Of a DNA stretch of 64,000 nt, positions 47,534-62,911 are shown piece by piece. The notes under the pieces are model-generated. The model did not search any database. It was not told where the DNA came from and saw only the letters and a program-made list of their open reading frames with translations. Numbering within the stretch: the first letter of the stretch is position 1; every line of letters starts with the position of its first letter. The stretch covers positions 124,001 to 188,000 of the forward strand of contig JAGWTA010000002.1 of the NCBI GenBank assembly GCA_028869185.1, written 5' to 3'. Position numbers and translations under genes: made by a program. Source of the DNA: Hyphomicrobiales bacterium (lineage in GTDB: Bacteria > Pseudomonadota > Alphaproteobacteria > Rhizobiales > Beijerinckiaceae).

Positions 47534-48571
47534 TCAGACGACGGAATCGGGCGCGAGCGCGCATACTGTCGTGCGGTCGACCTCGATCTGGATGGTCGGA
47601 TGGTCGATCTCGAAGCGGCTCTTCAGTTCGGCCGCCAGATCGCTGAGGAACCGGTCGCCTGGATGCCCTGCGCCCGTCACCAGATGAACGGTGAGAGCCG
47701 TCTCGGTCGTGCTCATCGCCCATATGTGCAAATCATGAAGGCTGTCGACGCCCGGACAGGCGCCCAGGAACGCGCGCACGGCCGCCGGATCGATGTGCGG
47801 CGGCGTCGCCGCCATGGAAAGAACGGCCGAATCCCGCAGCAATCCCCACGCGCCTGCAAAAATAACTATACAAATCAAGAGGCTGACAACTGGATCGAGC
47901 CAACTCCAGCCCGTCGCCATCATCACGAGCGCAGCGATCACCACCCCGGCCGAAACCGCCGCATCCGCGAGCATGTGCAGAAAGGCGCCGCGAACATTGA
48001 GATCGCGCCCGCCGCCAGAAAACAGCCAGGCGGTGACGCCATTGACCACGATGCCCGCGCTCGCCACCGCAATCACCGTGCGGCCGGCCACCGCCTCGGG
48101 CGCGTTCAGGCGGTGGATCGCCTCCCAGGCCAGCACGCCAACCGTCGCCATCAGGAACAGGCCGTTGAACAGCGCCGCCAGAATGGACGAGGAACGCCAG
48201 CCATAGGAAAAACGCGCCGTAGGCGCGCGATGCGCCAGCAAGCTCGCGCCCCAGGCGAGCACCAGACCGAGCACGTCGCCCAGATTATGCCCAGCGTCCG
48301 CCAGCAGCGCGACGGAATTGGCCAGATAGCCGAAGACCACCTCGACGACGACGAACCCCGTGTTGAGAATCGTGCCAATGGCGAAAGCCCGGCCGAAATC
48401 TTTCGGCGCATGCGAATGGCCATGCCCGTGGCTGTGACCGTGCCCGTGACCGTGGCCGCGCCCCTGCCGATGCCCCTGCCCATGGGCGTGATCATGCCCG
48501 TGATCGTGGTCCTGGTGATCGTGATGGTGATCGTCGTGATCGTGGTGATCGCGGTGGTCGTGGTCGTGCAT
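47534..48571 (-). CDS. Zinc cation diffusion facilitator
   Basis: A 345-residue CDF exporter with six helices. The first 60 residues are almost wholly His, Asp and Gly, a metal-collecting tail. The transport site has HxxxD in TM2 (HNLGD) and TM5 (HMLAD), the zinc-selective form, and the cytoplasmic domain has HDLHIWAMS. ATG 48571 follows AGG. It exports zinc (possibly cobalt or cadmium), balancing the importer at 8.6 kb. It is divergent from thiC, with the TPP switch between. Confidence 0.92.
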   Translation of the reverse strand: MHDHDHRDHHDHDDHHHDHQDHDHGHDHAHGQGHRQGRGHGHGHGHSHGHGHSHAPKDFGRAFAIGTILNTGFVVVEVVFGYLANSVALLADAGHNLGDVLGLVLAWGASLLAHRAPTARFSYGWRSSSILAALFNGLFLMATVGVLAWEAIHRLNAPEAVAGRTVIAVASAGIVVNGVTAWLFSGGGRDLNVRGAFLHMLADAAVSAGVVIAALVMMATGWSWLDPVVSLLICIVIFAGAWGLLRDSAVLSMAATPPHIDPAAVRAFLGACPGVDSLHDLHIWAMSTTETALTVHLVTGAGHPGDRFLSDLAAELKSRFEIDHPTIQIEVDRTTVCALAPDSVV

Positions 48572-48629
48572 CAAAAACCTCTGCCGCGAAAATGCGCTTT
48601 CAGCTGCAAGGGCGCAAGCAAGCCAAGCC

Positions 48630-48658
48630 TTGATGCGCGGGGCGCGCACGTCTATCTT
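48630..48658 (+). promoter_or_regulatory. Sigma70-type promoter of thiC
   Basis: TTGATG (48630-48635), a 17-base spacer and TATCTT (48653-48658). A start at about 48665 places the whole riboswitch in the leader. Confidence 0.65.
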
Positions 48659-48671
48659 GATCGCTCAAGCC

Positions 48672-52184
<3,513 letters not shown>

Positions 52185-52317
52185 TTCCAGGCCGAAGGAG
52201 CTTTATACGCGACGTTTCCATCCACCCGCACGACCGTGCGTCCGGTCATCTGCCGATCATTTGGCTAGACGAGCGCCGCTGTATCTGTATGTCAATATCG
52301 CCTTGAGGAGCTGCGCC

Positions 52318-52863
52318 ATGACCGAGACCCCCCGCCCCGCAATCATTGGCGTCGTCACCGCCTCCGACCGCGCGAGCGCCGGCGTTTACGAGGATATTTC
52401 GGGCCCCGCCATCGCGGCTTATTTCGCGCGCGTCGTCACCACGCCTTTCCGCATCGAGCGGCGCGTCATCCCCGACGGATTCGAGAGCGTGCGCGATACG
52501 ATTATCGAGCTGGTCGATGCCATCGGCTGCGATCTGGTTCTCACGACCGGCGGCACGGGACCGAGCCCGCGCGATTTGACGCCCGAGGCGACACTCGCCG
52601 CCGCCCCGCGCGAATTTCCCGGTTTTGGCGAGAAAATGCGCGCCGCCTCGCTGGCGCAGACGCCGACCGCGATCCTTTCGCGTCAGCTCGCCGCCCAGCG
52701 CGGCAAATGCCTCGTCGTCAATCTGCCTGGCAGTCCGCGTTCGATCGATCTGTGTCTCGATGCGGTGATGGCGGCGATCCCTTACTGTCTCGATCTCATG
52801 GGCGCGGCGCGGATCGAAACCGATCCGCGCTTCATCAAGGCCTTCAGGCCGCAGAAAGGCTGA
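52318..52863 (+). CDS. mog: Molybdopterin adenylyltransferase
   Basis: Adenylylates molybdopterin before molybdate insertion. It has 181 residues with IIGVVTASDRASAGVYEDISGPA and the TTGGTGPSPRDLTPEAT binding motif of MogA. GAGGAG at 52305-52310 fixes the ATG at 52318. It overlaps the 3' end of the convergent ABC permease by 20 bases. No other moa/moe genes are in the window. Confidence 0.93.
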   Translation: MTETPRPAIIGVVTASDRASAGVYEDISGPAIAAYFARVVTTPFRIERRVIPDGFESVRDTIIELVDAIGCDLVLTTGGTGPSPRDLTPEATLAAAPREFPGFGEKMRAASLAQTPTAILSRQLAAQRGKCLVVNLPGSPRSIDLCLDAVMAAIPYCLDLMGAARIETDPRFIKAFRPQKG

Positions 52864-54379
52864 ATGGAGCGCCGGCCCGTTTCGGTCGGTTCAACCACAG
52901 CGTCAGCAGCGCGAGCGCCACCGGCGCCAGCGCCCACCAGGACCATACCGCCGCCAGCGCGAGCCCCATCGCCCAGAGCAGCGACAGGAGATGCTCGATC
53001 ATAGCGACGACTTTGGACTGGCTGTGCCGGCGCAGAAGATCGCCGCGCTTGCCGGGCGAAGGCTGCCACAGGTTGACGAGCGCCGCCGACAGCGCCGCGC
53101 AGGAGGCAAAGAACAGCGTCATGTAGGCGCCCCTGGCCGCAGCCAGCCACAGCAGAAACAGCGGAACTGAGAACAGCAACGCCAGCGGTCCGACGATCGC
53201 CTCGAGCTTGGCGCGCTCGATCGCGCCGCGCGTCACGGGCGCCGTGGCCAGAAAATCGGGCGCATCCTCGCTGGAGATGGTGAGCCAGGCGAGCGAGGCG
53301 GAAATATGCGCGGCAACCACCACCATCGCGGGCGCGATAGCGAGCGCGACTGAGCCGTTCGGGCCCTGCGCGCGCCACAGCACGACCGAAACCGGCATCG
53401 TGTAAACAACCTGCAGCAGGATTTGCGAGGCGAGATAGGGATCGCGCGTGATCAGGCGCCATTCCTTGCGTCGCAAGCTGGCGCCGGCGCCGCCGCGGAA
53501 CGCGCGTTGAGACCGCGCGGGACGCGCGTCCGCGCCGCTGGCGCCGACCGTCGAAATCGCGCCATGGGCGAAAAGATCGGCCATCGTGAAACAGACCAGC
53601 GCAAAAAGCGCGAGCGCAATGAAGGCAAAAATCGCCAGCGCCGTCGGATCGCCCGCTGCAGCGCGCACGGGGATCCACCATGGCCCATCGATATCGAAGG
53701 CGCCGCCGTCATGGGCCACGCCAAGCCGCGCGGCGATCATCGCTCGCAGATGCGCGGGCGCGACATTGGCGCCCTGCAGGCCGAGCGCAAAGCCGGCGCC
53801 GATGAGCGTGGCGAGAATTTGCGCGACCAGCCGCGTGCGGCGCGGCCCGAACAGGCGGAATAGCGCCATCGTGAGCAAAAGACCGAGCGCTGCGCCCAGC
53901 AGCCCCGAAAAGAACAGCGCCGGATAAACGCCAAGCCAGTTCAGCCCGAAACGCCAGGCCATCATGTCGGCGACCGGCAGAAGGAAGATCGCCACCGACA
54001 CGATGGATTCCATCGCGATGGCGAAGCCGCGCGCAGCGAAGACCGTGCGCGCCGAAACAGGCGAGGCGAGAATGATATCGAGATCGCCGCGCGAATAAAG
54101 CGCGCGCGTTGCATTGGTGAGCGCCTGCGAGACGATCCACGGCAGGATGAAGGCGAAGACCATCGCGACCTGCGGATAGATCTGCCTGATGTCGCCGCCC
54201 GTCTCCTCGAAAACAGCGCGCGCCGCGCCATAGCCAAGACCGTGAAAGGCCGCCAGCGCCGCAACGAGAATGAGCGCAATTTTGAGCGGGCTGGACTTTC
54301 CGAAAAAAGCCCGGATGCGGCGCAGCGCCAGACGCAGGTCATGCGCGGCGAACCAGAGGAAGGAGCCCGGCGCGCTCAC
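52844..54379 (-). CDS. ABC-2 type exporter permease
   Basis: A 511-residue protein with about twelve hydrophobic segments. A central stretch (around 280-300) is soluble, and the phrase RRKEWRLITRDPYLASQILLQ is typical of ABC-2 permeases. The start is a GTG at 54379 overlapping the ATPase stop (GTGA). The exported substrate is unknown. The ATPase lies upstream in the same operon. Confidence 0.85.
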   Translation of the reverse strand: MSAPGSFLWFAAHDLRLALRRIRAFFGKSSPLKIALILVAALAAFHGLGYGAARAVFEETGGDIRQIYPQVAMVFAFILPWIVSQALTNATRALYSRGDLDIILASPVSARTVFAARGFAIAMESIVSVAIFLLPVADMMAWRFGLNWLGVYPALFFSGLLGAALGLLLTMALFRLFGPRRTRLVAQILATLIGAGFALGLQGANVAPAHLRAMIAARLGVAHDGGAFDIDGPWWIPVRAAAGDPTALAIFAFIALALFALVCFTMADLFAHGAISTVGASGADARPARSQRAFRGGAGASLRRKEWRLITRDPYLASQILLQVVYTMPVSVVLWRAQGPNGSVALAIAPAMVVVAAHISASLAWLTISSEDAPDFLATAPVTRGAIERAKLEAIVGPLALLFSVPLFLLWLAAARGAYMTLFFASCAALSAALVNLWQPSPGKRGDLLRRHSQSKVVAMIEHLLSLLWAMGLALAAVWSWWALAPVALALLTLWLNRPKRAGAPFSLSAA

Positions 54380-55161
54380 GCAGCTTTTGCCCCGCTTTGC
54401 GCCTGGCGCCAGTCGGCGCCGGCGTTCTCTTGCGTCAGATGCAGGAACAGGTCTTCAAGGCTCGCATCCGCGCGCCCGGCGCGTCCGCGCAATTGCGCCA
54501 GATCCCCTTCCGCGCACAGGCGGCCATGCTGAATGATGCCGATGCGATCGGCGAGTCGTTCGGCGACTTCGAGAATATGCGTCGTCAGAATGACCGAACA
54601 ACCAGCCTGTGTGCGCGCGCGCAAAATGTCCTTCACCTGCCGCGCGGCCGAAGCGTCGAGCCCGGTCAGCGGCTCGTCCAGCATCAGCAGCTTTGGCTCA
54701 TGGATCAGCGCGCCGGCGAGCGCCACTTTCTGCTTCATGCCGCGGGAGAAGCCTTCGCACCGCTGCCGCGCCTGCGCGCCAAGGCCCAACATGTCGAGCA
54801 ACTCGTTCGCGCGGGACTGCGCCAGGCGGGGCTCGACGCCCCAGAGGCCGGCGACGAATTCCAGATATTCGAGCGGCGTCAGCTTGTCGTACAGCATCGG
54901 CTCGTCCGGCAGCCAGGCCGTGATGCGCTTGGCCCCGATGGGGTCGCGCCGCGCATCCACGCCGAAAATGGCGATCTCGCCGGCGTCCGGCGGCATGAGC
55001 CCGGCCACCATGCGTAAGGTCGTGGTCTTGCCCGCGCCGTTGGGCCCCAGCAACGCATAGAATTCGCCGGGCCGGATCGTCAGATCCAGCGCATCGACGG
55101 CGGGACGGTCGAAGGATTTGGCGAGGCCGCGCAAAAGCAGGGCCGGTTGATTTTCATGCAT
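54376..55161 (-). CDS. ABC exporter ATP-binding protein
   Basis: A 261-residue ATPase. Walker A GPNGAGKTT is at about 39-47, the signature is FSRGMKQKV, Walker B is LLMLDEPLTGLD and the switch His is in TTHILEVAERL. The FSRGM signature and the partner permease mark a two-component ABC-2 exporter of the CcmA/NatA type. It diverges from the coiled-coil/OmpA/GTPase operon with 159 bases between. Confidence 0.92.
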   Translation of the reverse strand: MHENQPALLLRGLAKSFDRPAVDALDLTIRPGEFYALLGPNGAGKTTTLRMVAGLMPPDAGEIAIFGVDARRDPIGAKRITAWLPDEPMLYDKLTPLEYLEFVAGLWGVEPRLAQSRANELLDMLGLGAQARQRCEGFSRGMKQKVALAGALIHEPKLLMLDEPLTGLDASAARQVKDILRARTQAGCSVILTTHILEVAERLADRIGIIQHGRLCAEGDLAQLRGRAGRADASLEDLFLHLTQENAGADWRQAQSGAKAA

Positions 55162-55282
55162 AGGGCGGGGCCTGACGGGACTAGACCCTCGAAAATTAAC
55201 TGTATCGGCGTTTCGCAGGCGTTAAACCGCAGTCCCATCGCATTTTTCGCGGGCGCGATGGTTAAAAATGGCTTATCGTCCG

Positions 55283-55309
55283 CCCACTGGCTTGTCGCCA
55301 GCAGTGGGG
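55283..55309 (+). promoter_or_regulatory. Hairpin overlapping the ribosome site of the coiled-coil gene
   Basis: CCCACTGGC (55283-55291) can pair with GCCAGCAGTGGG (55297-55308) with a three-base bulge. The right arm contains the GTGGGGA that is the only purine-rich ribosome site before ATG 55321. It could hide the site; this is a possibility only. Confidence 0.4.
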
Positions 55310-55320
55310 AAAATTGTTCC

Positions 55321-55638
55321 ATGCAAAACGGTAAAGCCGCCGCCAAAGCGCCTGTCGCGCTCACGCCCGAGAACGCCGGGGCGATGGATCAGGTGCGCGA
55401 ATTGCTGTTTGGCGAGGCCAAACGCACAACCGAAGCCCGCCTCGACGACATTGATCGCAAGATCGAAATGCTGCGCGACGATCTCGCCGCCCGTTTCGCC
55501 TCGCTCGAAGCGCGCCTTTCCGATCAGGGCAAGGACACCGATCGCAAGCATGCGCAATCGATCGACGATATCGGCCACGCGATCGCGCAACTCGGCGAGA
55601 CGATCAAAGGTCTTGGCCAGGGCGCCGGTCGGCGCTGA
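55321..55638 (+). CDS. Small coiled-coil protein of the OmpA/GTPase operon
   Basis: A 105-residue soluble helical protein. From about residue 23, MDQVRELLFGEAKR leads into a heptad-type helix (ARLDDIDRKIEMLRDDLAARF ... DDIGHAIAQL), a likely coiled coil. The MDxxRELL text also occurs near the N-terminus of the OmpA-like protein encoded 10 bases downstream, so the two may share a docking segment. No named family is recognised with confidence. Confidence 0.7.
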   Translation: MQNGKAAAKAPVALTPENAGAMDQVRELLFGEAKRTTEARLDDIDRKIEMLRDDLAARFASLEARLSDQGKDTDRKHAQSIDDIGHAIAQLGETIKGLGQGAGRR

Positions 55639-55648
55639 GGACTGAACG

Positions 55649-57343
55649 ATGAATCGGCCGCCCGGCCAGTCCGCGTTCGAAATGGACCGGCTGCGCGAGC
55701 TTCTGCTCCAGCCGGAAGCGGACAGGCTTGCCGGTCTCGAAGGCAAGGTCGATGCGCTCGGCGCCTATGTCGGCGCGCCGGACCGGCTGGAGGCGGCGAC
55801 AGCCGGCGTTCTGGTGGAAGCCTTCCGCCGCGCCGAGATCGACCGTCATCAGGAATTGGCCAACGCCGTCGCGCCAGTCGTTGTCGCAGCAATCAAACAC
55901 GAGATCGTCAATTCGAAGGACATGATGATCGAGGCGCTCTATCCCATCACGGGCCGTCTCGTGGCCGCCGCCGTGGCCGCCGCATTCCGCGATCTCGTCG
56001 CCGACCTCAATCAGCGGCTCGATTCAACCTTTTCCGCCCGCCGCTGGAAATACCGGCTGCAGTCCATCCGCACGGGCCGCCCGGTGAGCGAGCTTGCGCT
56101 GGCCGACGCGCAATCGCCTGACCTGCGCCGCCTGTTGCTGCTCGAGCGCGGCGGCGGGCGCCCGCTCGCTCTTTGGCAGAAGGACCAGACGCAGAGCGAT
56201 GAGGAGCGCGCCGAACTGACAAGCGGCCTCATCGCCGCCCTGTCCGACTTCGCCTCCACCGTCTACGGCGAGCAGAGCGAATTGCGCGCGCTCGATCTTG
56301 GCGGCTCGCGCGTCTATCTGCGCGCCGCGCCGATTTACATCGTCGCCGCCGAATGTTCCGGCGTGGTCAAGCCGGAACACGAGCATGAGCTGGACACTCG
56401 CTTTCTCGCACTCGTATCGACGCTCGATCGCACGCCGCGCGACGCGCAGCCCGCAATCGAAACGATGGCCGGCGAATTGTTTCGGCCAAAGGCGCCTGCC
56501 AAACGGAAAAAGCCGAAAGCGCTGATCGCCATCGCAGCCGCTCTTGGCGCCGCGGCTTTGTTTTTCGCCGGCTCCTGGGCTCTGCGCGCCTATCGCACGC
56601 AGGCGATCAAGACAGCGTTCGAAACCGCGCGCGCAGCTCGACCGCAACTGCAAGGCTGGCCGGTGCATGTCAGCGTCGACGCCGCCGCCGGCAAGGCCAT
56701 CGTCACCGGCCTCGTGCCTGCGCAATCCGAAAGCGACGCGCTGGCGGCCGCCGTGCGCGCAGCAGCCCCCTATGTGGTCGAACAGGCGACAACGACGCTG
56801 GACGATTCCAGTCAAGCCGCACGCCTCGACAAGGCGGCCGAACGCGCAGCGCTGGCCGCCCGCACGCAAGGCGACGTCAATGCGCAACTTGCCGCAAGGC
56901 AGGATACGCTCGCCGCCGAACTCGCCGCCGCGCGCCAGAGCATTGCAACGTTGCAGCAGCGTTTGGCCGACCCTCATGCGGAACTCGACGCCTTGCTGCG
57001 CCACAGCGCCATATTCTTCACGCGCGACGATACGATCGCCGATGAAGCTGCGGCCAATGCGCGTCTGGACCGCATAGCCGCTGCGGTGAAGAAGGACGGC
57101 GGCGCTTTGCGCGTCGTCGGCCATGCCGATCTTTCCGGCATCGAGGCAAGCAACGCTGCGCTTGCGCGCAAACGCGCCGAGACGGTCGCCGCCATGCTCG
57201 TTGCGCGTGGCGTACCGCAAAGCCGCATCACGACGGTTGGCCGCTCGACAGCCGAACCGATCGCCACGAGCGCCCAACCCAGCGACGTGCGCAATCGACG
57301 CGTGACGTTCGAGCCTCTGTTCGACGGCGAGGTTCAACCGTGA
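55649..57343 (+). CDS. Bitopic OmpA-like envelope protein with large cytoplasmic domain
   Basis: A 564-residue protein. Residues 1-285 are cytoplasmic: MDRLRELLLQPEADRL, a helical segment with ALYPITGRLVAAAVAAAF, and a part with RRWKYRLQSIRTGRPVSELA; this looks like the N-terminal domain found in cyanobacterial OmpA proteins linked to small GTPases. One helix (about 290-312) crosses the membrane. Outside are a BON-like module (about 325-380), a coiled coil (about 395-440) and an OmpA-C peptidoglycan-binding domain (VVGHADLSG, RKRAETVAAML, NRRVTF). GTPase gene overlaps its stop. Inferred: wall-anchored receptor for the GTPase. Confidence 0.8.
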   Translation: MNRPPGQSAFEMDRLRELLLQPEADRLAGLEGKVDALGAYVGAPDRLEAATAGVLVEAFRRAEIDRHQELANAVAPVVVAAIKHEIVNSKDMMIEALYPITGRLVAAAVAAAFRDLVADLNQRLDSTFSARRWKYRLQSIRTGRPVSELALADAQSPDLRRLLLLERGGGRPLALWQKDQTQSDEERAELTSGLIAALSDFASTVYGEQSELRALDLGGSRVYLRAAPIYIVAAECSGVVKPEHEHELDTRFLALVSTLDRTPRDAQPAIETMAGELFRPKAPAKRKKPKALIAIAAALGAAALFFAGSWALRAYRTQAIKTAFETARAARPQLQGWPVHVSVDAAAGKAIVTGLVPAQSESDALAAAVRAAAPYVVEQATTTLDDSSQAARLDKAAERAALAARTQGDVNAQLAARQDTLAAELAAARQSIATLQQRLADPHAELDALLRHSAIFFTRDDTIADEAAANARLDRIAAAVKKDGGALRVVGHADLSGIEASNAALARKRAETVAAMLVARGVPQSRITTVGRSTAEPIATSAQPSDVRNRRVTFEPLFDGEVQP

Positions 57344-57837
57344 TCCGCAGCGCCAAGATCATGCTGCTGGGCTCCATCGGCGTCGGCAAGACGTCTCTGG
57401 CGCGCCGCTTCGTCTTCGACAAATTCGAGGGCGAATACAAATCGACGATCGGCGTCGATATTCACACCCATGACGTGTCGGTGGAGGGCGCGCCGATGCG
57501 GCTGATCCTCTGGGATACGGACGGAGACTTCGGCTCGCGCATTTTCGCCACCGCTTACGTGCGCGGCGCAGCCGGCGCTGTAATCGTGTCCGACGCCACC
57601 CGACCGGCGACGCTCACGCGCGCCGCCGAACTTGCGCGCGCATTCAGCGAACATTTCCCGGGCCGCCCCGTGCGCATCGTCGTCAACAAGATCGACGCCG
57701 CCACGCTCGAGCCGGAAGCGTTCGCAGGAACCGGCCTTGCCGCAACCGACGTTTTACGCGTCAGCGCGCGCACCGGCGAGGGCGTTCCAAAATTGTTCGA
57801 AGGGATTGGCGCCGAAGTTCTGCGCCGCAATCTCTAG
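57340..57837 (+). CDS. Ras-like small GTPase coupled to the OmpA-like protein
   Basis: A 165-residue single-domain small GTPase. G1 is GSIGVGKTS (11-19), a switch I Thr lies in KSTIGVD (T36), G3 reads DTDGD (59-63) where Ras-like proteins have DTAGQ, G4 is NKID and G5 is SARTGEG. Without the switch II Gln it may hydrolyse GTP slowly or need an activator. It starts at a GTG overlapping the OmpA gene stop (GTGA). Closest idea by context: an MglA/Rab-like switch at the envelope. No roadblock protein gene is adjacent. Confidence 0.85.
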   Translation: MIRSAKIMLLGSIGVGKTSLARRFVFDKFEGEYKSTIGVDIHTHDVSVEGAPMRLILWDTDGDFGSRIFATAYVRGAAGAVIVSDATRPATLTRAAELARAFSEHFPGRPVRIVVNKIDAATLEPEAFAGTGLAATDVLRVSARTGEGVPKLFEGIGAEVLRRNL

Positions 57838-57861
57838 TCGGCGCGCGCTCTAGTCGGCGCG
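57832..57861. repeat. 16-base-period tandem duplication carrying both stop codons
   Basis: CTCTAGTCGGCGCG occurs at 57832-57845 and again at 57848-57861. The first copy gives TAG to the GTPase gene (57835-57837), and the second gives the reverse-strand TAG (57850-57852) to the convergent gene. Confidence 0.85.
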
Positions 57862-58341
57862 TGTGTGCGCCGGCAATATGAGCAGCAGGTGCCGGGCGAG
57901 CGGCGACGTCGACAGCGTTGCGTAACAGCCAAGCGATTCCAGCCCGGCGAGCGCGGCGAAATATTCGCCATCGACGCCTTCAGCCATGCGCAGATGCGTC
58001 GCCCCGTCCGGGCGCGCCAGCGTCACCATCGCCATGCGCACATCGCTCAGCGAACGCCAGACGATCAATTCGACGCGCTGGCCGGCGTCCTCACGCGCAA
58101 AGGCGGCGCCGAGAAAACGCGACATCGCCGAATAAAGCGCATTCGGCTCTGCTCCGACCTCCGTGCGTTCGGGCGGTGGGGAAAACAGCACCGTCAGGTT
58201 TCTGGCGGAAATATTGCCCTCGAGCCCGCGCAGCGCATTGGCGACGCAACAGCGGAAGTCCGGCGCGTTTTCGGGTTCCGAGCAGCATCCCGCGTTCTGG
58301 CGCGGGTTGACGGTGAGATCGTCTTGGACAGCAGCTAACAT
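57850..58341 (-). CDS. Uncharacterised protein, possible degenerate HATPase fold
   Basis: A 163-residue soluble protein with five cysteines in the first third. The stretch VGAEPNALYSAMSRFLGAAFA ... VELIVWRSLSDVRMAMVTL resembles the N-box helix and strand order of histidine-kinase ATPase domains, but the Asn and Gly motifs needed for ATP are absent. The start at 58341 has no clear ribosome site. It stands 70 bases downstream of the response regulator gene on the same strand and faces the GTPase operon. I do not recognise a family; real coding status is likely from frame and composition. Confidence 0.55.
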   Translation of the reverse strand: MLAAVQDDLTVNPRQNAGCCSEPENAPDFRCCVANALRGLEGNISARNLTVLFSPPPERTEVGAEPNALYSAMSRFLGAAFAREDAGQRVELIVWRSLSDVRMAMVTLARPDGATHLRMAEGVDGEYFAALAGLESLGCYATLSTSPLARHLLLILPAHTRAD

Positions 58342-58411
58342 GACGCATCGAGAATCGGCATTTTTGGCCGACCTTCATGTGCCGCATGTCATCCGCCCTC
58401 CCTGCCAAACG

Positions 58412-59065
58412 TCATTTTTTACCCGATTTGACCACTTTCACGGCCAGTTCCGTGCGGCTGCGCACACCGAGCTTTTCCATGAGGCGGCTGACGTAATTCT
58501 TCACCGTGCCTTCGGCCAGGTGCAACGCGCCGGCAATCTCCTTGTTCGATTTGCCATTGGCGACGAGCGACAGGATTTCATGTTCACGCTCTGTGAGCGG
58601 CTCGTCGGGACCGTCTGAGCCGGTCGGCGACTGCAAGGGTCGCGTGCGGCGCAATTCGCCAAGCACCTTTTCGGCAATCGACGGCGAAAGCCGCGCCTGC
58701 CCGCGGATCGTGGCGAGGATCTCGCGCTCCTCCGCATCCTTCAGGAGATAGGCCGCAGCGCCGGCGGAAATCGCGTCGAACACCAGGGAATCCTCGTCGA
58801 AAGTCGTCAGCACGACGACACGCGTCTGCGGCCGGTCGGCCAGAATTTGCCGCGTCGCGGCGACGCCGCCAAGGCGCGGCATGTTGAGATCCATCAGCAC
58901 GACGTCCGGATGCACGATGCGCGCGAGCCGCACCGCTTCGTGCCCGTCCGGCGCCTCGGCCACGACGTCGATGTCGGGCTCCAGCGAAAGCATCGTCTTG
59001 AAAGCGCGGCGGATCAGTTGCTGATCCTCTGCGATCAGAATGCGGATTTTGGGCGCTGCGCTCAT
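58412..59065 (-). CDS. NarL/FixJ-type response regulator
   Basis: A 217-residue two-domain regulator. The receiver (1-120) has ILIAEDQQ, phospho-acceptor Asp in VVLMDLNMP and the Lys of LLKDAEE. The LuxR-type helix-turn-helix (about 150-215) reads LTEREHEILSLVANGKSNKEIA ... EGTVKNYVSRLMEKL. It overlaps the histidine kinase gene by ATGA, so the two form an operon with kinase first. Confidence 0.94.
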   Translation of the reverse strand: MSAAPKIRILIAEDQQLIRRAFKTMLSLEPDIDVVAEAPDGHEAVRLARIVHPDVVLMDLNMPRLGGVAATRQILADRPQTRVVVLTTFDEDSLVFDAISAGAAAYLLKDAEEREILATIRGQARLSPSIAEKVLGELRRTRPLQSPTGSDGPDEPLTEREHEILSLVANGKSNKEIAGALHLAEGTVKNYVSRLMEKLGVRSRTELAVKVVKSGKK

Positions 59066-60468
59066 GACTTCTTTTCCTGTTGCGCCTGCGGGGCGCGCAC
59101 GATCGTGCGCACGCCCTGCCCAGGCGTTGATTGAATGACGACAGACCCGCCGATCATGCGCGCCTGTTCGTCCATGCCGATGAGTCCGTAATGGCCGGGA
59201 TGTTTGGCCTGCGTATCGAAGCCGCGCCCGTTGTCGGTCAGCACGACTTCAATTTCGCCGCCCGAAGAACGCGCGACGAGTTGCGCGCGCGCGGCGCCCG
59301 AATGCGCCTCGATATTGCGCAACGCTTCCTCGATGATGCGATAGACGACTTCCGCCCGCTCGCCGAAAACGCCGTTCAGCAGCGGATCGACATCGGCTTC
59401 GACGGCGATGCCGGTGCGCTCCTGCAGGCGCCGGCAGGCGCGCGTCAGCGCCGGGCCAAGCCCGTCGAGCCCCGCGCGCTCGAAACGCACCTGACCCACC
59501 GCCTCGCGCGTGCGCGCAAGACCGTCGCGCACCGCATCCTCGGCGCGCGCAAGCTCGGGCTCCACCATGTCGGGCGCGCGCTCTTGCATCTTGCGAACGA
59601 GACGCAATTGCGCAGAGACGGCGACGAGGGAATGAACGATAGAATCATGCAGGTCGTGTGCAATTTTCAGCCGCTCGCGCATGACCAGCGCATGGCGCGC
59701 CTCGGCATTGGCGCGCTCGACATCGGCCCGCAGATTGCGCAGCAGCGTGACGTCCCGCCCCACCGCCTGAAATTCCTGCGGCCCTCCGCCGGCGCCGAGC
59801 CACGTCACGCGCCACCACACCCAGATGACGTCGCCGCGCGGCGTGCGCAGGCGCTGCTCGAAAGACGCTTCAGGACCGTCGGCGCGAATGGAGCCCCACG
59901 CCCCGCCCTCGCCGGCGAGCTGCGCGCCCGCGCGCGCGCCGACAATCGGTCCGCATTGATCGAGCCCGCGCCGGTTGGCGAAGACGACGACGCCATCGCC
60001 GTTGAGACGCAGCACGAGATCGACATCGCGCTCGACGATGTCGCGATAATAGGCCTCGCTGACGCGCGCACGCTTCTGCGCGGCGGCGGCCTGCTCCTCG
60101 GCCAGTTGCTGCGCCCGTCTCTCGCCGACGAGGAGGGATTCAAGCTGTGCGGCGCCATGGTCGGGCATGGTGAGCGCGAAGAAACAATTCTCGGCGACGC
60201 TCCAGACAATGGCGATGAGGAGGCGCTGCTCGCCCGCGAGCCTGACGCCCGGCAACGCCAGCGCTTCGCCGGGATGAGCGCGCAGATGCGCAAAATCGGC
60301 TTCCATGCCGGCAAGCGTTGGCGCCTCGAAACAGGAATGGCCAACCGGCGGCAGCCAGTCAGGCGCCCGCCCCGCGCGCTCGAGCACGACGCCATCGGCG
60401 CCGATGCGCGACAGCGAGGCGCCCAGTTGCGCAAAGGGCGCCTGCAAGGCGCGAAGACTTTCGCCCAT
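59062..60468 (-). CDS. Soluble NarX/DesK-class sensor histidine kinase with PAS domain
   Basis: A 468-residue kinase without membrane helices. The N-terminal part (1-130) is of unknown type, followed by a coiled coil and a PAS domain (about 150-250, DLVLRLNGDGVVVFANRRGLDQ). HisKA_3 has the phospho-acceptor in KIAHDLHDSIVHSL and the HATPase has EEALRNIEAHSG, DNGRGFD and GLIGM. ATG 60468 is preferred (AGG upstream) to a TTG at 60486. Its cytosolic PAS suggests a redox, gas or metabolite signal; no haem or FAD ligand can be assigned. Confidence 0.9.
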   Translation of the reverse strand: MGESLRALQAPFAQLGASLSRIGADGVVLERAGRAPDWLPPVGHSCFEAPTLAGMEADFAHLRAHPGEALALPGVRLAGEQRLLIAIVWSVAENCFFALTMPDHGAAQLESLLVGERRAQQLAEEQAAAAQKRARVSEAYYRDIVERDVDLVLRLNGDGVVVFANRRGLDQCGPIVGARAGAQLAGEGGAWGSIRADGPEASFEQRLRTPRGDVIWVWWRVTWLGAGGGPQEFQAVGRDVTLLRNLRADVERANAEARHALVMRERLKIAHDLHDSIVHSLVAVSAQLRLVRKMQERAPDMVEPELARAEDAVRDGLARTREAVGQVRFERAGLDGLGPALTRACRRLQERTGIAVEADVDPLLNGVFGERAEVVYRIIEEALRNIEAHSGAARAQLVARSSGGEIEVVLTDNGRGFDTQAKHPGHYGLIGMDEQARMIGGSVVIQSTPGQGVRTIVRAPQAQQEKKS

Positions 60469-60539
60469 ATCGACCTGTGCGCGCAAAATTTCCCCTTGGC
60501 GGCATTCTGGCCAAACTTTGCGCCGGACGCCAGCCCGGC

Positions 60540-61919
60540 CTAACCAGGCGCCGCGCGCATCGCCTCTGCGGCCAGTTGGCGCGCCGCCTGCGCCCAGCGC
60601 GGCCGAATGACGCGCGAGGGATCGCCCTTCAGGCGTCCCTGCGCAAAATCGCGCACGGTGCGCGCGAGCGCGTCGGCGTCGTTTACGGCAAAATAAAGCG
60701 CGCCATCGCGTCCGATCTCGCGGAAAACCGGAATGTCGCTGCAGATCGCGGTCTTGCCGAAAGCGGCCGCTTCGGCCACCGACAGACCGAACCCCTCCGC
60801 ATAGGAAGGCGCGAGCACCGCCGCGCAGCGATCATAGGCATAGGACAAATCCTCGTCGCCCGCATGGTCGAACCAGAACAATCTGCGCCCCATTTCGGGA
60901 TGGGCGCGCAGACGCGTCAGAAAGGCGTCGAGATTCCAGCCGGGCCTGCCGATGAAAACCAGTTTTCCGGCAAAGCTGTCCGCCCAGAGCTTTTCGAAAG
61001 CGGCCAAAGCGACGGCATGCCCCTTGCGCGGCTCGAGCGTGCTGACGATGAGATAGGCGGGCGCGTCGGCGAAAGCGCGCGCAACCGCTTGCGAAGGATT
61101 GGACCTGGCGTCGTCTGGCGCAAAATCCGAGCCGCAATGGAACCAGCCGATGCGCAGGCCCGGCCGCACCGCCATGCCGCGCTGCGCGACAAAGGCCCGC
61201 AACTCGTCGGCCACTGTCTGCGAAATCGCGACCATCGCGTCGCTTTCGGACAGCGACGCCGCAAGCCAGCGACCGTGATCGCGCGGCGTGTCGCCAACGC
61301 AAGCGCCAGGATAAAGCTGCGGGATGAGGTCATAGATCACGCTCGCAATTCGCCCGCCCGCCGCCCGCACGGCACCGAAGACCGGCGCAAAGCGCGCGAA
61401 ATCCTTCCAGGAACTGTCGAGCATCAGCAACACGTCGCCAGCGCAGGGCGCGATCGGCGCATCGGGTCCGCGCGGCGCGCGTTGGCCAAGCGCGGCCCCG
61501 TAAGACTCGCACGCCACGAGGCGCTCGCCCGCAAGACGCACCGCGAGCGGATAGACGCCCGGCGGATTGTCGGCGTAAAGCGCGCCGACCACCTTTTTGA
61601 CGACGCGCTGAATGCCGGTGCGATCGTCATGGCCGACAATCGCAGTCACATCGATCAGCAGACGCGCCGTTCCCGCCGCCGGATCGAATGCCCGCGTCGG
61701 CGCCGCAGCGCTTTCAATCTGCGAGGCCGCTGCGCGAGCATCGCTCCGGCGCAAGCTGCGGCGCAGCGCATTCTCGATGGTGCGCACTGGCCAGGCGAAA
61801 CGCCAGGCCGCGCTGTAAACGGTCTCGTCGCGCCATTTGCGCAAAGCTTCAAGCTCGCCGCGCAACTGGTCGATCTGGAATTCGAGGATCTTGCGATGCT
61901 GGTCGTCCGGGCCGCTCAT
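60540..61919 (-). CDS. Glycosyltransferase family 4-type protein
   Basis: A 459-residue GT-B glycosyltransferase. A coiled N-terminus (KILEFQIDQLRGELEAL) and linker precede the catalytic part, which has VSTLEPRKGH (the phosphate-binding region), GRPGWNLDAF and the donor-site motif PSYAEGFGLSVAEAAAFGK with the EX7E-type glutamates. It overlaps rmd by ATGA and lies in the gmd-rmd operon, so D-rhamnose (or mannose) transfer is plausible. Confidence 0.88.
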   Translation of the reverse strand: MSGPDDQHRKILEFQIDQLRGELEALRKWRDETVYSAAWRFAWPVRTIENALRRSLRRSDARAAASQIESAAAPTRAFDPAAGTARLLIDVTAIVGHDDRTGIQRVVKKVVGALYADNPPGVYPLAVRLAGERLVACESYGAALGQRAPRGPDAPIAPCAGDVLLMLDSSWKDFARFAPVFGAVRAAGGRIASVIYDLIPQLYPGACVGDTPRDHGRWLAASLSESDAMVAISQTVADELRAFVAQRGMAVRPGLRIGWFHCGSDFAPDDARSNPSQAVARAFADAPAYLIVSTLEPRKGHAVALAAFEKLWADSFAGKLVFIGRPGWNLDAFLTRLRAHPEMGRRLFWFDHAGDEDLSYAYDRCAAVLAPSYAEGFGLSVAEAAAFGKTAICSDIPVFREIGRDGALYFAVNDADALARTVRDFAQGRLKGDPSRVIRPRWAQAARQLAAEAMRAAPG

Positions 61920-62911
61920 GCGCCGGCCTTGATGCGCGCGCGCATGTCGTCCAGCAGGTCGCGCAACGTCTGTTCGAGGGCGATCTGCGGCGCCCAGCCC
62001 GTCGAGGCGCGCAATCTTTGCGCATCGCCGGCGATAACCGGAATATCGTTGGGGCGCAGTCGCGCCGGATCGACCTCGACAGCAAACTGCGCCGCCGTTT
62101 CCGCGCGCAGAATATCGAGCAGATCGCCTATGCGGCGCGGTGCGCCCGAGGCGATGTTGAAAACATTGTCGCCATCCTCGCCGATCGTGGTCATCTGCGG
62201 CGCGGCGCGCAGCAGCGCGACATAGGCTGCGGCGACGTCGCGCACGTCGAGAAAATCGCGGCGCGCCTCGATATTGCCGACAATCATGCGCGGCGCGATC
62301 AGCCCCGCCTCGATCTCCGCAGCCTGTCGGGCGAACGAGGGCATGACGAAGCGCGTATCCTGCCCGGGCCCCGTGTGATTGAACGGGCGCGCGACAATCA
62401 GCGTCGCATGCGCGCCGAGCGCTTCCGGCAGCCCGCGCTCGGCGTCCGCCTTTGTTTGCGCATAGACGTTGTTGGGCGCCAGCGGCGTCGTCTCTCGCGC
62501 TGGCCCGTCGCGGAAATGATCGCCATAAACTTCGCCGGTGCTGACGAAGAAGAACACGCAGGCGGGATCGGCCTGCGCTGCGGCGCGCGCCAGCGTCAGG
62601 GCGCCATCGCGATTGACGCGTCGTGTCTCTTCTGGCGCGGTCGCGGCGACCGCGGCGGATGCCTGCGCTGCGAAATGCAGAACGAGATCAGGCCGCATAT
62701 CCGCGACGAAAGCTTCGACAGCGCCGGCGTCGCCAAGGTCAATTTCGTGTTGCGACCAGCCCGGCCGCTCTGCCCGTTCGCCCGGTCGCGTCAGAATTGC
62801 GCGTTCGCTGTGCGGAAAGGCCTCCGCGACCATCGGCGCGAGATAACCGCCGACGAAGCCAGCGCCGCCTGTGAAGAGAATGCGCCGGAACGGCGCTGCG
62901 GCGCCGGCCAT
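61916..62911 (-). CDS. rmd: GDP-6-deoxy-D-mannose reductase
   Basis: Extended-SDR enzyme that reduces GDP-4-keto-6-deoxymannose to GDP-D-rhamnose, 331 residues. TGGAGFVG is the NAD-binding loop, YAQTK the catalytic Y-x3-K and the RPFNHTGPGQDTRFV signature is typical of RMD. One base separates it from gmd, so the pathway pair is coupled. Confidence 0.92.
   Translation of the reverse strand: MAGAAAPFRRILFTGGAGFVGGYLAPMVAEAFPHSERAILTRPGERAERPGWSQHEIDLGDAGAVEAFVADMRPDLVLHFAAQASAAVAATAPEETRRVNRDGALTLARAAAQADPACVFFFVSTGEVYGDHFRDGPARETTPLAPNNVYAQTKADAERGLPEALGAHATLIVARPFNHTGPGQDTRFVMPSFARQAAEIEAGLIAPRMIVGNIEARRDFLDVRDVAAAYVALLRAAPQMTTIGEDGDNVFNIASGAPRRIGDLLDILRAETAAQFAVEVDPARLRPNDIPVIAGDAQRLRASTGWAPQIALEQTLRDLLDDMRARIKAGA

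Follow-up and report, generated by a model that had tools for sequence, protein, structure and literature searches.

A wall-anchored receptor with a predicted longin-like domain beside a Ras-like GTPase in a variant Group 1 Rup gene cluster of a Hyphomicrobiales bacterium

Why is a small Ras-like GTPase encoded side by side with a protein that carries a cell-wall-binding domain? The question is raised by a locus on a Hyphomicrobiales contig, of which we analysed a stretch of 64,000 nucleotides (the window); the genome assembly comprises 2.9 Mb, and the nearest records to its GTPase bear the names Methylocystaceae and Rhodoblastus. Three genes, for a coiled-coil-type protein, an OmpA-type receptor and the GTPase, form one tight run on the plus strand, with the GTPase reading frame starting at a GTG and overlapping the stop of the receptor gene (Table 1). 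An earlier note had proposed this trio as a candidate envelope switch that might be undescribed. Our analysis confirmed its open reading frames and agrees with its interpretation as far as the topology and the GTPase coupling are concerned. Its parts list was incomplete, since it contained three of four parts and left out the kinase/regulator pair on the minus strand, and the system is not undescribed: the trio plus a fourth, output gene had already been reported in 2014, in the account of the Group 1 Rup GTPases (PMC4316618). The suggested cyanobacterial resemblance is consistent with the same account, which lists Cyanobacteria in Group 1.

Table 1. Features of the gene cluster, with positions in the window
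Feature	Position	Strand	Basis
105-aa protein of coiled-coil type, encoded first in the run	55321..55638	+	Translation, no hydrophobic segment
Conserved MDQVRELLFG motif in the coiled-coil protein	55384..55413	+	Resembles the receptor's LRELLL motif
Receptor, 564 aa: helical region, longin-like domain, single membrane helix, periplasmic linker, OmpA domain	55649..57343	+	
Predicted longin/roadblock-like domain, receptor residues 156-280	56114..56488	+	AlphaFold2 model, Foldseek, VIA-align
Single membrane helix, about receptor residues 288-312	56510..56584	+	Kyte-Doolittle maximum 2.14 at residue 291, sole such peak
OmpA-type peptidoglycan-binding domain, receptor residues 466-550	57044..57298	+	Pfam PF00691 E 9e-15; D494, R509
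Ras-like small GTPase, 165 aa	57340..57837	+	Pfam, G motifs, PDB relatives
Small ORF between the GTPase and regulator genes	57850..58341	-	
NarL/LuxR-type response regulator	58412..59065	-	Pfam Response_reg + GerE; D59 present (motif)
Soluble HisKA_3 histidine kinase	59062..60486	-	Pfam, motifs
Predicted PAS-like N-terminal domain of the kinase, residues 1-110	60157..60486	-	Model pLDDT 91, fold matches

We considered the small ORF downstream of the GTPase gene as a further core component. It gave no Pfam or NCBIfam match, and its homologues, with 28-33% identity, are confined to close relatives, where they too are sited between the GTPase and the regulator; it is therefore probably not part of the core. 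On the other side of the run, ABC transporter permease and ATPase genes (52844-55161, minus strand) diverge from the coiled-coil gene, and several close relatives (loci L006, L007, L009, L035 and L037) also have the ATPase gene in the vicinity of the trio. Elsewhere in the window, a cation diffusion facilitator-like transporter (47534-48649, minus strand) carries long His/Asp/Gly-rich repeats near its start, as judged by eye. No Rfam RNA was detected across 50000-62000, promoter and terminator scans performed no better than on shuffles, and a search of a plasmid collection returned no match.

The GTPase belongs to the Ras family (Pfam PF00071, E 5e-24) and its best PDB relatives are Rab proteins. 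It contains the motifs G1 (GSIGVGKT), switch I (T36) and G4 (NKID), while its G3 motif, DTDGD, is without the catalytic glutamine. This glutamine is absent from every GTPase that we tabulated, the commonest G3 form being DTDGD; the GTPases of loci L087 and L100 have VEIEGD/VEVEGD in place of WDTDGD in the G3 region. The 105-residue soluble product of the first gene has no membrane segment by hydrophobicity and is labelled a coiled coil on the basis of its composition and of weak matches to coil families in Pfam. When the coiled-coil and receptor families were compared by hhalign, 23 columns aligned with a probability of 84% in a single comparison. The short LLFG-type motif that the two sequences have in common hints that the coiled-coil protein and the receptor probably assemble together.

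How the GTPase might be connected to the wall is suggested by the cytoplasmic part of the receptor. About 287 residues precede its sole hydrophobic segment, and the proposed topology, with a cytoplasmic region, one helix and a terminal OmpA domain, is thus upheld. A Pfam search of the receptor sequence, with E values up to 1, gave no longin or roadblock profile match. We modelled receptor residues 1-328 with AlphaFold2 using 40 sequences (overall pTM 0.55). The model has long N-terminal helices of modest confidence, followed by a compact β-β-α-β-β-β-α-α domain at residues 158-276 (DSSP), for which the pLDDT is mostly 87-96. Structural searches, which covered mainly residues 156-282, returned Ragulator MP1-p14, Mon1-Ccz1 with Ypt7, AP2 sigma, TRAPP and MglB when Foldseek was run against the PDB (best E 4e-4). 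The top match by VIA-align was a TRAPP subunit (Z 12.7, 117 residues, rmsd 2.5 Å), and Mon1-Ccz1, Sec22b, Vamp7, Fuzzy-Inturned, an archaeal longin and MglB scored at Z 10-12. Several of the matching structures contain a small GTPase as well. The model thus predicts that the cytoplasmic domain contains a longin/roadblock fold, the usual platform for small GTPases, which acts mainly as a GEF and occasionally as a GAP (PMC10933270).

Invariant or near-invariant positions across the 40 receptor sequences include L97, P99, G170, A197 and F201, and R136 and G238 are kept in 39 and 38 of them, respectively; one may speculate that R136 is a contact or catalytic arginine. Two variants of the receptor-domain architecture were seen in passing. 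A Chloroflexota protein (L196:6096-7181, minus strand) ends after the longin-like domain, having neither a membrane helix nor a wall module, and is possibly a soluble version, and in loci L197 and L200 the receptor-domain proteins occur as tandem pairs.

At the wall-facing end of the receptor, the binding-site aspartate and arginine of the OmpA domain are conserved in 41 and 44 of 46 aligned rows, respectively. Receptors from Chloroflexota keep this cytoplasmic domain and helix but continue with a Thr/Pro-rich linker and, in place of OmpA, an SH3_3-like region; the latter scores above the Pfam cut-off in L187 and below it in L191 and L195. Such a swap of wall modules, OmpA in Pseudomonadota for SH3_3-like in Chloroflexota, fits a receptor that holds the wall.

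To follow the linkage of these genes, we scanned with the GTPase and obtained 80 loci, mostly from Hyphomicrobiales. Where the sequence extends far enough, nearly all of them have the coiled-coil and receptor genes alongside, and many loci from Bradyrhizobium, Mesorhizobium and Beijerinckiaceae also carry the regulator/kinase pair, either upstream or downstream of the trio. Since this sample had been selected by the GTPase, we assembled a second set of loci selected by the receptor cytoplasmic domain alone. Receptor-domain matches were obtained in 50 of 398 sampled Pseudomonadota genomes, in 9 of 385 in a class sample and in 11 of 251 in a Chloroflexi-centred sample. The GTPase adjoins the receptor in 34 of the 36 fully read loci that were selected solely by the receptor domain, from Pseudomonadota and Chloroflexota. 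Both genes are present in 103 of all 113 loci examined, and 102 of these 103 also contain a coiled-coil homologue. The earlier note would have given up its GTPase coupling if the linkage did not recur in other genomes; these counts clearly show that it does. Distant bacteria thus share these genes together with their domains and linkage, and recurrence in multiple phyla rules out chance adjacency. Most Chloroflexota loci start with the GTPase gene, followed by those for the coiled coil, receptor and output; elsewhere the GTPase gene comes third, after coiled coil and receptor and before the output. Receptor and GTPase distances are correlated (r 0.96), which shows co-inheritance only. Loci L156 and L197 contain a receptor without a GTPase, with none in the 17 kb read for L197. 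In L085 and L086, which encode close relatives of the GTPase, no adjoining coiled-coil or receptor gene was found, and each has a 773-residue ORF next. Fusions of GTPase and receptor would have been direct evidence of their coupling, but the candidates were rejected: the long ORF of L092 is a stop-to-stop artefact, and in L106 the genes are separate.

The fourth gene offers a possible destination for a signal. The window's kinase consists of the PAS-like N-terminal domain, a second weak PAS match, HisKA_3 (DLHD, with H280 assigned by motif) and HATPase. Its hydrophobicity profile gives no clear membrane helix, the peak of 1.83 at residue 89 falling on the PAS strands of the model, and such a kinase would need a membrane partner for envelope sensing. 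The model of its N-terminal region has a PAS fold and then a long helix, and matches photoactive yellow protein and other PAS domains. Directly behind the GTPase, distant loci encode a HisKA kinase, a GGDEF-EAL protein or a class III cyclase, and the classes of fourth gene that we distinguish are a HisKA_3 kinase plus regulator, a HisKA kinase, a GGDEF-EAL protein and a class III nucleotidyl cyclase. The N-terminal 110-140 residues of the distant outputs align with the N-terminal region of the window's kinase, and several output enzyme classes are predicted to have one N-terminal PAS-like domain in common. Over the receptor plus GTPase tree the output class changed about five times, a count that is approximate because L087 and L100, whose nearby kinases are without a clear shared N-terminal domain, are labelled HisKA_3. 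The recurrence of the PAS-like domain, combined with the changing output class, suggests a constant core coupled to exchangeable enzymes via one adaptor domain. Since the kinase/regulator pair lies on the opposite strand in the window's branch and upstream in other genera, it is not always co-transcribed with the trio.

The output proteins also bear on how GTP would be hydrolysed. It was proposed in 2014, in the description of Group 1, that an invariant glutamine of the output protein serves the GTPase, which is itself without one (Wuichet & Sogaard-Andersen, PMC4316618). In our alignment of outputs this glutamine is present in 18 of 18 HisKA and cyclase rows versus 0 of 12 HisKA_3 rows, and it is also present at the site in the Chloroflexota outputs that we inspected. 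The HisKA_3 rows carry G, R, A, S or T instead; in the window's kinase the residue is Gly121, just behind the PAS-like domain. A comparison of GTPase columns between partners of glutamine-lacking and glutamine-bearing outputs revealed weak differences only and no compensating glutamine. Since the HisKA_3 outputs lack the residue and the GTPase has none of its own, catalysis by a glutamine in trans cannot be general, and the proposal cannot hold for the window's branch unless another residue substitutes.

We lean towards an explanation in which a wall-tethered small-GTPase platform relays the state of the wall to the kinase. The OmpA protein would be fixed in the peptidoglycan outside and span the inner membrane once, and the GTPase would be seated on the receptor's helical region and longin-like domain. 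By analogy with other longin/roadblock platforms, the receptor would set the nucleotide state of the GTPase as a GEF, a GAP or both, so that a change in the wall would alter the geometry of the platform and, through it, the nucleotide state. The GTPase or the platform would then act on the PAS-like N-terminal domain of the kinase, and the kinase would phosphorylate the NarL-type regulator to change transcription. Formation of this complex, GEF or GAP activity and a wall-to-cytoplasm direction are what we infer from the parts, the last being favoured by the kinase output. More specifically, the wall-bound part might alter exchange or hydrolysis on the longin domain, so that the GTPase cycle would report peptidoglycan tension or integrity to whichever of the interchangeable outputs is present (kinase, cyclase or c-di-GMP enzyme), a version that we put forward tentatively.

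The same parts could be read from the inside out: the GTPase cycle would control the clustering, position or peptidoglycan grip of the wall-anchored protein in the service of polarity or envelope stiffness, with the kinase reporting or setting the state of the GTPase. The conserved wall-binding residues of OmpA would suit such a tether, as would the precedent of Myxococcus MglA/MglB, in which a GTPase and its roadblock partner drive polarity and of which MglB is among our structural matches. However, wherever the fourth gene is readable it is an enzymatic output (kinase, GGDEF-EAL or cyclase), which is better suited by flow from receptor to output, and we regard the reversed direction as unlikely. 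A different objection concerns the platform itself. SNAREs and adaptor subunits, for example, contain longin domains without regulating GTPases, and the presence of both among the structural matches of the receptor domain counts against the platform reading. The longin-like domain might merely be an assembly or dimerisation module, with control of the GTPase falling to the coiled-coil protein or to the N-terminal region of the output. The output glutamine would lend itself to the latter, since it accompanies GTPases without a G3 glutamine in all 18 aligned non-HisKA_3 outputs and in the inspected Chloroflexota ones; its absence from all 12 outputs of the window's branch, where the GTPase also lacks its own, argues against such control, and this alternative as a whole appears improbable to us. 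Finally, the kinase pair is apart or on the other strand in some relatives, as it might be if these were co-inherited envelope and signalling genes that share no complex, but that the four parts stay together across phyla despite changed order and swapped modules makes this a very remote prospect.

If the wall-tethered platform is real, a longin-type platform in a wall-anchored receptor beside its GTPase would supply a mechanism for the family that can be tested. The predicted platform is of a kind known from the vesicle traffic of animals and yeast, and the pairing of a Rab-like GTPase with a longin domain would be used in bacterial signalling. Ordinary bacteria of soil and plants, for example Bradyrhizobium and Mesorhizobium, would also possess a route from the wall to the cytoplasm whose outputs can be swapped.

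Among known systems, the FtsZ-like/vWA/GTPase/OmpA systems (Makarova & Koonin 2010, PMC2875224) were set aside because their gene set differs. In MglA-MglB of Myxococcus and Thermus, too, a small Ras-like GTPase has a partner of the roadblock/longin type. Unlike the free roadblock protein MglB, however, the window's platform-like domain lies within a wall-anchored membrane receptor, the window's GTPase is Rab-like by sequence, and a Pfam search for a separate MglB gene gave no roadblock-family match among the six genes of 55321-60486. The actinobacterial conservons (CvnA-D) similarly include a histidine kinase, a roadblock-type protein and a small GTPase; they differ in having no OmpA receptor, an MglA-type GTPase and a separate MglB homologue, and their set is without a response regulator, whereas the window has one. 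TRAPP, Mon1-Ccz1, Fuzzy-Inturned and Ragulator resemble the predicted fold of receptor residues 156-280, but these are eukaryotic endomembrane complexes with about 7-16% identity to the receptor domain in structural alignments.

The closest likeness is to the Group 1 Rup neighbourhoods, which were listed in 2014 without experiments (Wuichet & Sogaard-Andersen, PMC4316618). As described there, these contain a gene for a cytoplasmic coiled-coil protein, one for an unknown domain, in many cases with a membrane helix and OmpA domain behind it, and a signalling gene, for a c-di-GMP enzyme or a histidine kinase, whose product has an N-terminal region with the invariant glutamine. The window's GTPase agrees with this description in being single-domain, with Ras-like G motifs and no G3 glutamine, as do the adjoining coiled-coil gene and the gene for an unknown domain, membrane helix and OmpA, and the fourth gene, a kinase with a conserved N-terminal region. 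The window differs in that its kinase is of the HisKA_3 type, is paired with a separate NarL-type regulator, lies on the opposite strand and is without the glutamine described as invariant, and because of this last difference we file it as a variant of the Group 1 Rup systems and not as an ordinary member. The paper's description of Group 1 mentions neither class III cyclase outputs nor SH3-like wall modules and gives the receptor domain no fold, and our literature search found no paper joining a longin fold with a cluster of this type. The gene plan is thus already known, and what we add to it is the missing glutamine, the wider range of outputs, the swap of wall modules and the predicted fold of the receptor.
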